The notes under the pieces were generated by a model. That model was not told the DNA's origin and did no database searches. It was given only the letters and a program-made list of their open reading frames with translations. The translations under genes were made by a program, and so were the position numbers. A stretch of 64,000 nt of DNA from Micromonospora citrea (GTDB lineage: Bacteria > Actinomycetota > Actinomycetes > Mycobacteriales > Micromonosporaceae), in NCBI RefSeq assembly GCF_900090315.1, contig NZ_FMHZ01000002.1, positions 1,900,501 through 1,964,500 on the forward strand. The letters run 5' to 3'. Shown piece after piece: positions 33,281 to 36,823 of this stretch (position 1 is the first letter of the stretch; every line of letters begins with the position of its first letter).

Positions 33281-33288
<8 letters not shown>

Positions 33289-34084
33289 GCGTCGCCCGGC
33301 CGGTCCGACCGCCGCCCCGAGCGGGCCGCCGCGCCCACCCCGCCCGACCGGCACGCCGCTGCGGGCCGCCGCGGCGTCGGCGGCCACCGGCTGCGCCGCC
33401 GTGGGCGCGGTCGCGGTGGCCGTCGCCGTGGTCGCCGGCCCCGGGCCGGGTCTGACCGGGTACGTCAGCGAGGCGGGCGTCACCGACAGCCCCTACGCCC
33501 CGGCGTACCGGATCGGGGTGTTCGCCCTCGCCGCGGCGCTGCTGCTGCTCGCGGCGGCGCTGCCCGCCCGGCTGCGCGTCGCGGCCGGGCTGCTCGCCGC
33601 CGGCAGCGTGTGCACGCTGGTCTCCGGCGCCGTGGCGTGCAGCGAGGGCTGCCCGTTGCCGCCCTACGAGCGGGCGACGACGGCCGACCTGGTGCACGGC
33701 GGGGCGAGCATCGTCGCGGTGGCCTCGGTCGTCCTCGCGATGCTCGCGATCGCCTTCCTCCCCGGGGCCGACCGGGCGCTACGCCGGCTGGCCGCCGGGG
33801 CGGTCGCGGCGGCCCTGCCGCTGGCCGGGGCGGTGGGGCTGGCGATGCTCGCGATCGGCCGGGGCACCCTGGTCGGGGTGCTGGAGCGGCTGCTGCTCCT
33901 GGTGGCCGTCCTCTGGGCCGCCGCCACCGCGACCGCCATCGCCCTCCGGCGAAGACGCGAGGATGGGCGCCCGGTTGACGCCCGCGGTGGGGGAAGGAAC
34001 GCTTCCGCACCCCGCTGTAAGGAGCGTCACCAGAGCTGGTCCTTCCGGCGCATCGACCGGGGCGATAACCTCGGCGGGCGATGA
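33281..34084 (+). CDS. DUF998 membrane protein
   Basis: A 267-residue protein with six predicted helices: GCAAVGAVAVAVAVVAG, AYRIGVFALAAALLLLAAAL, RVAAGLLAAGSVCTLVSGAV, VHGGASIVAVASVVLAMLAI, GAVAAALPLAGAVGLAML and LERLLLLVAVLWAAATATAI. A Cys pair (ACSEGC) lies in an external loop. This matches DUF998, a poorly characterised family. The last 45 residues, after RRRRED, are Arg/Gly-rich and unlike a normal tail; they overlie the promoter and leader of the next gene. The GTG start overlaps the preceding gene by eight bases; the stop overlaps the leader-peptide ATG. Confidence 0.8.
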
Positions 34085-34170
34085 CCAACGTCTGGCACCT
34101 CACCGTGCGCCTGTATGTCGACCTCCGACTGCAGGCCAGCGGCATCTGTCCGGCGCAGCCGCTCTCCTGA
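34081..34170 (+). CDS. Probable cysteine-responsive leader peptide
   Basis: A 29-codon frame encodes MTNVWHLTVRLYVDLRLQAS followed by GICPAQPLS. It resembles the short 'VDL....S..C' putative leader peptides found before sulfur-related genes in actinomycetes (recalled pattern). A single Cys codon (TGT, 34147-34149) sits near the end. A GTG at 34105 would give the compact form MRLYVDLRLQASGIC. The frame ends 39 bases before the ATG of a DAACS-family symporter. The inference is that translation through the Cys codon senses Cys-tRNA and attenuates expression. Its ATG overlaps the DUF998 stop (ATGA). Confidence 0.6.
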   Translation: MTNVWHLTVRLYVDLRLQASGICPAQPLS

Positions 34171-34209
34171 CGCTGCCCCGTTCGACCTCCAGACCCTGGG
34201 ACATCTCTC

Positions 34210-35523
34210 ATGGCATCCGCCCTACGCAAGATCCCCTTCTCCGCGCAGATCCTGCTCGGCCTCGTCCTCGGCGTGGCGCTCGGCTTCCTCGCCCGCGCCA
34301 ACGACCTGAGCTGGCTCACCAGCACCCTCGACACCGTCGGCGGCCTCTTCGTCCAACTGCTCAAGCTGGCCGTGCCGCCGCTGGTCTTCACCGCCATCGT
34401 GGTCAGCGTCGTCAGCCTGCGGGGGGTGGCCAACGCCGCCCGGCTCGCGCTGAAGACCCTGCTCTGGTTCGGCGTCACCGCGCTGATCGCGGTGAGCATC
34501 GGCATCGGGCTCGGCCTGCTCACCGACCCCGGCCGCGGCGTGACCCTGGACACCTCGGGCGCCACCGCCCCGAAGCGCACCGGCTCCTGGACCGACTTCC
34601 TCACCGGCATCGTGCCGACCAACCCGGTCGGGGCGTTCGTCGAGGGCAACGTGCTCCAGATCGTCTTCCTGGCCCTCGTCGTCGGCGCCGCCGCGCTGCT
34701 GGTCGGCGAGGCCGCGGAGCCCTTCGTGGCACTCAACCGCGCGCTGCTGGAGATCGTCCAGAAGGCGCTCTGGTGGGTCATCCGGCTCGCCCCGATCGGC
34801 ACCCTCGGCCTGATCGGCAACGCCGTCGCCTCGTACGGCTGGGACCTGGTGGCGCCCCTCGCCAAGTTCACCACGGCCGTCTACGTCGGCTGCGCGATCG
34901 TGCTGTTCGTGGTCTACCCGCTGCTGCTGGTCGCGGCCGGCCGGCTCAACCCGCTGCGCTTCTTCGCCGGCGCCTGGCCCGCGATCGAGCTGGCCTTCGT
35001 CTCCCGCTCCTCGGTGGGCACGATGCCGGTGACGCAGCGCTCCGTCGAGCGGCTCGGCGTCCCCCGCGAGTACGCCTCGTTCGCGGTGCCGTTCGGCGCG
35101 ACCACGAAGATGGACGGCTGCGCCGCGATCTACCCGGCGCTCGCGGCGATCTTCGTCGCGCAGGTCTTCGGGGTGGACCTCGGCGTCACCGACTACCTGC
35201 TGATCGCCTTCGTCTCGGTGGTCGGCTCGGCGGCCACCGCCGGCCTGACCGGCGCGATCGTGATGCTCACCCTGACCCTGAGCACGCTGGGCCTGCCGCT
35301 GGCCGGCGCCGGCCTGCTGCTGGCGATCGACCCCATCCTCGACATGATCCGCACCGCCACCAACGTGGCCGGCCAGGCGCTGGTGCCGACCATCGTCGCG
35401 GCCCGCGAGGGCACGCTGGACCGGACCGCGTACGACTCGGCCGGCCGGCGCTCGCCGCTCGCCCCGGCGGACGCCGACGCCGCGTCCCGCCGCCCGGAGG
35501 ACCTCAGCCCCGTCCCGGCCTGA
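34210..35523 (+). CDS. Dicarboxylate/amino acid:cation symporter (DAACS family)
   Basis: A 437-residue secondary transporter of the GltP/TcyP superfamily. Helices include AQILLGLVLGVALGFLA, VQLLKLAVPPLVFTAIVVSV (TM3 core) and HP/TM7-TM8 regions with AFVSRSSVGTMPVTQ (hairpin 1) and PFGATTKMDGCAAIYPALAA (TM7). The common NMDGT signature is changed to KMDGC, and SAATAGLTGAIVM forms hairpin 2. Substrate may be a dicarboxylate, acidic amino acid or cystine. A leader peptide with a Cys codon directly upstream favours a sulfur amino acid link (inference). The hydrophilic 40-residue C-terminal tail is variable. Confidence 0.92.
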   Translation: MASALRKIPFSAQILLGLVLGVALGFLARANDLSWLTSTLDTVGGLFVQLLKLAVPPLVFTAIVVSVVSLRGVANAARLALKTLLWFGVTALIAVSIGIGLGLLTDPGRGVTLDTSGATAPKRTGSWTDFLTGIVPTNPVGAFVEGNVLQIVFLALVVGAAALLVGEAAEPFVALNRALLEIVQKALWWVIRLAPIGTLGLIGNAVASYGWDLVAPLAKFTTAVYVGCAIVLFVVYPLLLVAAGRLNPLRFFAGAWPAIELAFVSRSSVGTMPVTQRSVERLGVPREYASFAVPFGATTKMDGCAAIYPALAAIFVAQVFGVDLGVTDYLLIAFVSVVGSAATAGLTGAIVMLTLTLSTLGLPLAGAGLLLAIDPILDMIRTATNVAGQALVPTIVAAREGTLDRTAYDSAGRRSPLAPADADAASRRPEDLSPVPA

Positions 35524-35755: not shown

Positions 35756-36823
35756 ATGAGTGTCCTGTTCACGCCGCTGACCCTGCGCGCGGCCACCCTG
35801 CCCAACCGGATCGCCCTGGCGCCGATGTGCCAGTACAGTGCCGGCCCGGACGGCCTGCCGACCGACTGGCACCTGGTGCACCTGGGCGCCCGCGCCGTCG
35901 GCGGCGCCGGCCTGGTGATGACCGAGGCCACCGCGGTGGTGCCCGAGGGGCGGATCAGCCCGCAGGACACCGGGCTCTGGTCCGGCGCGCACGTCGACGC
36001 CTGGCGGCCGGTGACCGCGTTCGTCGCGGCGCACGGCGCCGTGCCGACGGTGCAGCTCGCGCACGCCGGGTTCAAGGCGTCGACGTACCGGCCGTGGGCG
36101 CCGGAGCGCGGCGGGGTGCCGGACGCGGAGGGCGGCTGGACGCCGGTCGGCCCCGGCTCGGCGCCGTTCGTGCCCGACTACCGGGTGCCCACCGCGCTCG
36201 ACGAGGCCGGCATCGCCGGCGTGGTCGAGGCGTTCGCGGCGGCGGCCGAGCGGGCCGTCGACGCCGGATTCGCCGCCGTGGAGATCCACGCCGCGCACGG
36301 CTACCTGCTGCACGAGTTCCTCTCGCCGCTGACGAACCACCGGCAGGACGACTGGGGCGGGGACCGGTCCCAGCGGATGCGGCTGACCCTGGCGGTGGCC
36401 CGCGCGGTACGGGCGGCGGTCGGCGAGGACGTGCCCGTGCTGACCCGGATCTCGGCCACCGACTGGGAGCCCGGCGGCTGGACGGTCGAGGACAGCGTGG
36501 TGCTCGCCGGCGAGCTGGCCGGGGCCGGGGTCGACCTGGTCGACTGTTCCTCGGGCGGCGCGTCGGCGACCGCGTCGGTCCCCGTCGGCCCGGGCTACCA
36601 GGTGCCGCTGTCCGCCCGGGTACGCCGGGACGCGGGCGTGGCCACCGGCGCGGTGGGCCTGATCGTCGAGCCGGAGCAGGCCGAGGAGATCGTCGCCGCC
36701 GGCGACGCCGACCTGGTCCTGCTCGGGCGGGAACTGCTGCGCGACCCGTACTGGCCGCACCGCGCCGCCGCCGAGCTCGGCGCCACCGCCTCCTGGCCCG
36801 CCCAGTACCTCCGCGCCTCCTGA
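35756..36823 (+). CDS. Old yellow enzyme family NADH:flavin oxidoreductase (YqjM-like)
   Basis: A 355-residue FMN-dependent ene-reductase. The N-terminus PNRIALAPMCQYSAGPDG carries the YqjM-class Cys that tunes FMN. HAGFKAS, EIHAAHGYLLHEFLSPLTNH (substrate-binding His-x-x-H region), DDWGGDRSQRMRLTL, ISATDW and LVLLGRELLRDPYWP are family signatures. It reduces activated C=C bonds or quinones with NADPH/NADH. The ATG at 35756 follows GAGG. It stands alone after a hairpin and converges with the fused ABC gene. Confidence 0.92.
   Translation: MSVLFTPLTLRAATLPNRIALAPMCQYSAGPDGLPTDWHLVHLGARAVGGAGLVMTEATAVVPEGRISPQDTGLWSGAHVDAWRPVTAFVAAHGAVPTVQLAHAGFKASTYRPWAPERGGVPDAEGGWTPVGPGSAPFVPDYRVPTALDEAGIAGVVEAFAAAAERAVDAGFAAVEIHAAHGYLLHEFLSPLTNHRQDDWGGDRSQRMRLTLAVARAVRAAVGEDVPVLTRISATDWEPGGWTVEDSVVLAGELAGAGVDLVDCSSGGASATASVPVGPGYQVPLSARVRRDAGVATGAVGLIVEPEQAEEIVAAGDADLVLLGRELLRDPYWPHRAAAELGATASWPAQYLRAS

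Follow-up and report, generated by a model that had tools for sequence, protein, structure and literature searches.

A putative cysteine-responsive leader peptide upstream of a TcyP-like symporter gene in Micromonospora citrea

Leaders featuring cysteine codons are already known in bacteria. According to Seliverstov et al. (2005; PMC1262725), such leaders, devoid of obvious terminators, were predicted upstream of cys operons in mycobacteria and other organisms. Cysteine-responsive leaderless open reading frames (ORFs) encoding polycysteine tracts have been described in mycobacteria by Canestrari et al. (2020), as cited in PMC13236596 and PMC9094748, the former of which terms the mechanism translation attenuation. 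Eight leaders are listed for S. lividans in PMC8079986, and none is there assigned to cysteine. The leader ORF described here is located just upstream of a symporter gene in a 64,000-nt stretch of Micromonospora citrea DNA (contig positions 1900501-1964500, hereafter the window; coordinates of the leader, its RNA elements and the flanking genes are window positions, + strand). With a probability of about 0.72, it is a translated leader responsive to cysteine which governs the synthesis of a TcyP-like importer, whose substrate is probably cystine or a sulfur amino acid related to it. Judging from the sequences compared, the symporter is likely induced by low cysteine.

The leader ORF (34081..34170) has 29 codons and encodes MTNVWHLTVRLYVDLRLQASGICPAQPLS. 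Its sole Cys codon, UGU (TGT in DNA; 34147..34149, codon 23), is the proposed stall codon, and is followed by six more residues. The leader stop is 39 bases away from the ATG (34210) of a gene encoding a 437 aa symporter of the SDF/DAACS type (34210..35523, PF00375 354.6 bits), and the short frame noticed in front of this gene by the first-pass annotation is indeed there. The peptide features the signature R10-x2-V13-D14-...-C23 (34108..34149), in which R, D and C, the latter encoded by TGT, are found at positions -3, +1 and +10 relative to V. In a survey of 61 Micromonospora genomes, that of the window included, the leader was found at all the 48 symporter orthologues (at least 88% identity; 30 loci covered by the main leader survey, three of which share their upstream sequence with named loci, plus 18 further loci), the window's own among them. 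When named actinobacterial loci were collected via the symporter protein, the signature was found in 67 out of 80 (66 in the main survey, plus L043), and related leaders precede orthologues in Salinispora, Plantactinospora, Streptomyces, Nonomuraea, Microbispora, Streptosporangium, Nocardia and Streptoalloteichus.

The 49 aligned Micromonosporaceae sequences, among which some genomes are represented twice, are gap-free over the first 75 columns. In 34 distinct 25-codon leaders from this family, variable sites at the first, second and third codon positions are 5, 7 and 16, respectively, of 24 each. Synonymous changes alone are seen in 11 codons, a change of the encoded residue in 8, and no variation in 5. 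Nocardia spells RLHVDL as AGG TTG CAT GTG GAT TTG, the same peptide being encoded by divergent codons. Identical sequences were collapsed for codon, opening-energy, duplex and pairing counts; Micromonosporaceae counts leave out one locus with a different leader type (L036), and L090, L103 and L110 were dropped as duplicates. The conservation of both reading frame and Cys codon, to which the first-pass annotation had tied its proposal, is thus borne out by the aligned 5' regions of the orthologues, and the comparison makes it almost certain that the leader is a conserved and translated element.

The Cys codon at +10 is UGU in all the 80 distinct symporter leaders (39/39 in Micromonosporaceae, 41/41 elsewhere), which were collected with a spacing-tolerant pattern, and TGT is likewise found in the 18 further genus orthologues. 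The symporter ORFs located beside these leaders feature 157 TGC and one TGT. One leader (L020) has a TGC at +9 besides the TGT at +10. Position +4, counted over 93 symporter leaders with repeats kept, is occupied by Arg in 61 and by Leu in 32. The rule extends to the leaders detected by NF042934, an NCBIfam profile of the cis_reg_atten type for putative leader peptides, which sees residues and is blind to codons. Matches (E <=0.001) were found in 64 of 79 genomes of the class, over the curated cut-off in 57, and in none of 14 control genomes. All the 150 matches listed, 130 over the cut-off and 20 below, were inspected, in sets of 30 (with L111), 60 and 60, the last set comprising 40 over the cut-off and the 20 below it. 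All the 130 leaders listed over the cut-off feature R(-3), D(+1) and R(+4), the general form being R-x2-[VIM]-D-x2-R, and Cys is found at +10 in 128; the codon is UGU in 127 of these and UGC in one (L327). TGT is at +10 in 18 of the 20 listed below the cut-off; of the others, one features TGC (L342), and one Ala (L343, a 572-residue open frame that is probably not a leader). Five of 60 class-wide leaders fell outside the first motif string and were still counted. Class-wide leaders and symporter leaders are separate tallies, which may overlap.

In 92 tabulated leaders, of which 90 exceed the cut-off and two, L112 and L116 of the M. citrea genome, fall short of it and were chosen by hand, the two signature arginines are each written with five codons. 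The remaining Cys codons of 87 class-wide leaders are TGC in 87 instances and TGT in 19 (52/11 and 35/8 in two subsets). Since each Arg uses five codons, the sequences indicate that selection acts on the leader peptide and, at the cysteine, on the codon itself. A single standard tRNA-Cys gene, with anticodon GCA, was identified by ARAGORN in the regions that span the genome's 56 tRNA matches. UGU is decoded by tRNA-Cys(GCA) via wobble, and is wobble-read here if this tRNA is its sole reader; that UGU is preferred because of slower wobble decoding is a guess. A role of UGU as an arm pairing to the Shine-Dalgarno (SD) region (UGUCC/GGACA) was ruled out as the general explanation, since UGU is constant upstream of a wide variety of genes, and the bases that follow it vary; in Micromonosporaceae UGU may add to pairing, the second-best duplex windows being found at nt 61-63. 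Elsewhere in the genome, L296 (6285310-6285582), near L292, is a tRNA-like gene of low score, whose anticodon, GCAA, has four bases. It is located near a cluster of further tRNAs of low score (Ser, Trp and Glu; 6287131-6287400); it might read cysteine codons, or be part of a decayed or mobile tRNA array.

Some class-wide leaders deviate from the common type. Two over the cut-off, L311 (G133:C2, TAG) and L313 (G117:C1, TGA), keep R..D..R and feature a stop codon exactly at +10, which would fit a slow step at this position. The leaders with UGC are L327 (G082:C282) and L342 (G091:C119), the latter rich in cysteine (GGCCCLC). In a variant fitting RVHMDL[VL]RYAGCVCRPSC (L160, L161, L162, L165), found before unclassified genes, M replaces V and UGU is still at +10.

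According to the first-pass annotation, leaders of this type are found mainly before sulfur genes; such genes do follow them in the genome of M. citrea and, for most leaders whose neighbours were read, over the class. Genes located within the next 1.1 kb were read for the 92 tabulated leaders. Sulfur-gene strings were found downstream of 60 of the 92 (rhodanese-type sulfurtransferase 35, sulfite/nitrite reductase 16, cysteine synthase-like 5, CysH-like 4). By this crude string test, the others precede solute-binding lipoproteins (3), SDF symporters (2), DUF4395 (1), KorA (1) and unclassified genes (25). The KorA-like 2-oxoacid:ferredoxin oxidoreductase gene (L176) is a surprising gene to find behind a leader of the cysteine type. 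A search of the M. citrea genome gave 10 matches, including the window leader and three leaders kept by eye. Of these, L111 (contig 4082144), MGTLLTKRRAVDLCRVATCLCRPVI, is over the NF042934 cut-off and precedes a mercaptopyruvate/thiosulfate-type sulfurtransferase gene; it features UGU at +10 and UGC as its other Cys codon. L112 (contig 85076) and L116 (contig 4576193) are weaker leaders with the same signature and UGU at +10, located before genes for an amino acid ABC binding protein and for a sulfite reductase-like protein (named by eye), respectively. Six matches were left out: L113 and L114, inspected and found to lack a leader, and L117-L120.

The window peptide scores 14.4 bits with NF042934, the cut-off being 27; the match (E 0.022) spans positions 2-12 of the 19 in the model. 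It shares with the family R-x2-V-D-L, the Cys at +10, UGU, occurrence in Actinomycetes and the sulfur-gene neighbourhood, and differs in score, in the Leu at +4, in having one Cys only and in the six residues past it. In two genomes (G101, G119), leaders over the cut-off, WGLTERLHVDLRRQASAACP[VA], precede a gene recognized as SDF-like symporter by sequence resemblance. As these closely resemble the window leader, the latter is, on sequence grounds, a diverged relative of NF042934 rather than a formal member. The assignment of the window leader to a sulfur/cysteine regulon is very probable.

The main conserved block between the leader stop and the symporter ATG, CCAGAC(n)UUGGA, has its complement in leader codons 2-5 (ACCAAYGUCUGG). 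The two tracts may form a long-range helix, called P1, with the 5' arm at 34084..34095 (ACCAACGTCTGG, codons 2-5) and the 3' arm at 34189..34201 (CCAGACCCTGGGA), the latter including the weak SD-like GGGA of the symporter gene. When a gap of 0-3 nt is allowed and the best fit chosen, at least 9 of 10 pairs form in 33 of 39 distinct sequences. Relative to shuffled sequences, the duplex energy has a mean z of -2.53 (range -4.44 to -0.2; 32/45 below -2), and the strongest duplex windows in the leader begin at nt 3-6. In RNAfold ensembles, mean pairing of the block with leader nt 1-16 is at least 0.45 in 40 of 46 sequences. The median opening cost of UUGGAC in the 46 sequences decreases from 5.39 to 3.43 kcal/mol once leader nt 1-16 are covered, and is 3.39 kcal/mol if the whole leader is covered up to the stalled ribosome. 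In the window sequence, an initiating ribosome lowers the cost from 5.46 to 4.51 kcal/mol. Opening energies were used instead of the accessibility of SD plus start codon, which is close to zero in almost every state and uninformative. The SD-masking fold envisaged by the first-pass annotation is thus available as a potential conserved helix, by computation only, and P1 is of the kind expected in translational attenuators, in which leader RNA can occlude the ribosome-binding region of the following gene. These models make SD masking by P1 somewhat the better bet. Direct complementarity between leader and post-stop stretch was noticed by eye in Streptomyces-type leaders, and rejected: these leaders (a list including, by pattern, one Microbispora locus, L040) do no better than shuffles (mean z -0.46, 0/31 below -2), and the same holds for Streptosporangiales-type leaders (mean z -0.47, 0/8 below -2).

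A promoter-like -10 hexamer, TAACCT (34066..34071), ends 9 bases before the leader ATG, and all the 49 aligned Micromonosporaceae sequences feature TANNNT at -15..-10 from this ATG. This is compatible with a transcript beginning at the ATG or just before it, and hence leaderless or nearly so. Starting from such a transcript, the control could be exerted as follows. With ample Cys-tRNA, ribosomes would clear the leader, and codons 2-5 would pair with CCAGACnUUGG, masking the symporter start. With scarce Cys-tRNA, a ribosome would stall at UGU23, wobble-read by tRNA-Cys GCA; later ribosomes would plausibly queue back to the leader start, P1 formation would be blocked, and the symporter translated. 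The queue is invoked because, in the models, the SD region is opened only by coverage of the leader start, and not by a lone stall at the Cys codon. The conserved R..D..(R).. located 6 to 13 positions before the Cys would strengthen the stall through the nascent peptide, a role given slightly less than even odds.

Sensing of Cys-tRNA, as put forward by the first-pass annotation, agrees with the conserved Cys codon, and is an incomplete account, as a peptide motif at fixed distance is conserved as well, which plain attenuation does not need. In plain attenuation by a hungry codon only the supply of Cys-tRNA would count, the peptide motif being either baggage or a reflection of RNA structure. 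Precedents for this mechanism are the cysteine-codon leaders predicted in 2005 and the cysteine-responsive polycysteine ORFs mentioned above, and the codons for RLYVDLRLQA do fold in Micromonosporaceae as a central hairpin (GCCTG..GTCG/CGAC..CAGGC, 34109..34136, within leader codons 10-19), the pairs of which are nearly all invariant, and hence provide no covariation evidence. The invariance of R(-3), D(+1) and R(+4) in the 130 listed leaders, which selection by the profile may inflate, with Arg written by five codons, and the constant place of Cys in the 80 distinct symporter leaders tell against it, because a tRNA sensor needs neither. Plain attenuation is a serious contender, held to be somewhat less than an even chance. 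A comparable, tentative standing is given to the broader proposal that these leaders are a class-wide family of cysteine-sensing arrest peptides, R-x2-[VIM]-D-x2-R-x5-C, in which nascent chain and UGU, a strongly favoured wobble codon, would jointly turn one codon into a sensitive sensor, the Micromonosporaceae symporter leader adding SD masking by its own first codons via queuing. At the other extreme, RNA structure alone, either riboswitch-like or constitutively masking the SD, could be what is conserved, the ORF being incidental. Long-range helix and hairpin are conserved, and some leader codons (GTC13, CGC10, CGA16) hardly vary; yet changes are in excess at third positions, many codons vary only synonymously, the same peptide is spelled by divergent codons in Nocardia and across the class, and Rfam searches gave two chance-level matches only. 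This makes control by RNA structure alone very improbable.

The identity of the imported compound can be weighed separately. Compared with E. coli proteins, the symporter shows 30% identity to both TcyP and GltP, 26% to SstT and 24% to DctA. E. coli TcyP (YdjN), the one TcyP sequence compared, is annotated as cystine/sulfocysteine:cation symporter. Two features are shared, among these four proteins, with TcyP only: one extra residue in transmembrane helix 7 (TM7; a GC insertion, DGCAAIYPA and NGCAGLYPA), and [DE]P preceding the DM motif of TM8. The SRSS of hairpin 1 (HP1), also common to symporter and TcyP, is a weaker mark, as TRSS is found in SstT and in an archaeal aspartate transporter. 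The likening to a sulfur importer made in the first-pass annotation gains from these two membrane-helix features, and TM7/TM8 residues may set the specificity for cystine. A leader sensing cysteine could still precede a carrier of aspartate, glutamate or C4-dicarboxylate. The names given in databases to the orthologues, generic (dicarboxylate/amino acid:cation symporter) among the 120 entries listed, and that of the best solved relative, Aspartate transporter, lean this way; the TM8 RT..N motif is kept in the symporter, and the HP1 Arg is also found in the aligned archaeal aspartate transporter. The TM7 residue and the TM8 [DE]P are however missing from GltP, DctA, SstT and the aligned solved aspartate transporters, the best solved relative included as to TM7; the leader family is found mainly before sulfur genes; and no leader was found at the 18 paralogues examined (31-33% identical), out of 35 weaker matches listed (29-35% identical), DctA-like motifs being present in 7 of 10 paralogues inspected for motifs. 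Transport of a dicarboxylate or acidic amino acid is accordingly unlikely, and cystine or a close sulfur compound is the probable substrate suggested by the protein comparisons. In summary of this relationship, symporter and TcyP are alike in SDF fold, TM7 insertion, TM8 [DE]P and, less tellingly, HP1 SRSS, and differ in that identity is low.

Several observations weigh against cysteine-responsive control of a TcyP-like importer by the leader. The leader has a single Cys codon, its score is below the NF042934 cut-off, and at +4 it features Leu17, the class-wide consensus having Arg there. The signature is missing from 13 of the 80 named orthologues (six from Kitasatospora, L024, L031, L034, L035, L037, L056, plus L025, L026, L029, L033, L041, L046 and L078). 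The UGU rule has exceptions among the 150 matches listed (UGC in L327 and L342, stop codons in L311 and L313, Ala in L343). As to the symporter, TcyP is no closer than GltP, and the aspartate-transporter name of the best solved relative bears on the substrate call. As to the RNA, a model ribosome placed on the Cys codon alone leaves the SD region closed (5.42 vs 5.39 kcal/mol), as does a stalled ribosome plus one follower (5.26 kcal/mol), and in the window sequence full coverage of the upstream leader is of no help (from 5.46 to 5.72 kcal/mol). No compensatory changes in P1 were found on the leader side, and the strongest association, that of U9 with A, gives p = 0.005, uncorrected for kinship. 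RNAalifold, run on the 49-sequence alignment, picked, instead of P1, a fold internal to the leader, in which the leader start is paired with the Cys region; double changes are found at 3 of its 22 pairs, and some pairs have up to 11/49 broken cells. Such a fold could compete with P1. A stricter sigma-70 scan of 33950-34260 detected no promoter, and the terminator considered by the first-pass annotation as an alternative to SD masking did not materialize, no terminator-like site being found in the same interval. With one Cys codon and no intrinsic terminator, the locus does not fit a classical transcription attenuator, which combines a run of regulatory codons with such a terminator.

Short Cys-rich frames, several of them resembling AVDxPRxCRAxSC, are found upstream of the symporter gene at Kitasatospora-type loci (L024, L025, L026, L031, L034, L037), and are possibly a rearranged version of the leader. 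Upstream of the window leader, a DUF998 frame (33281-34084) ends in a TGA overlapping the leader ATG, as noticed in the first-pass annotation. The coupling surmised from this overlap was dropped, because the arrangement is not conserved: DUF998 was detected in 17 of 22 loci searched, and in the 16 relatives in which its end could be placed the frame ends 28-522 bases earlier, never over the leader ATG. Downstream of the symporter gene is an old-yellow-enzyme (NADH:flavin oxidoreductase) gene (35756-36823), matched in 19 of 22 Micromonosporaceae loci, one match being partial.

The symporter as target, the preference for UGU, the fixed R..D..R..C spacing and the masking of the SD region by leader codons did not turn up in the open-licence literature searched, an absence to be read as weak. 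The window leader resembles the mycobacterial polycysteine leaderless ORFs in being a short ORF with a cysteine codon located before a sulfur gene, and the promoter position suggests that it is leaderless, or nearly so, as well. It is set apart from them by a single Cys codon in place of the several that make up a polycysteine ORF, by a transporter as target, and by the predicted SD-masking helix.

The analysis provides a testable substrate class, a sulfur amino acid and probably cystine, for transporters that databases name only generically. The nearly exceptionless UGU rule, observed in 127 of 128 class-wide leaders listed and in 80 of 80 symporter leaders located beside genes using UGC, makes the workings of terminator-less actinobacterial cysteine leaders testable by codon and residue swaps. 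In arrest peptides of the TnaC type, conserved residues of the nascent chain are found at a set distance from the position that senses the amino acid, and the leaders described here have such a spacing, too. In contrast to TnaC, the leader upstream of the M. citrea symporter gene, in which arrest is putative, is expected to answer to low, rather than high, levels of its amino acid.

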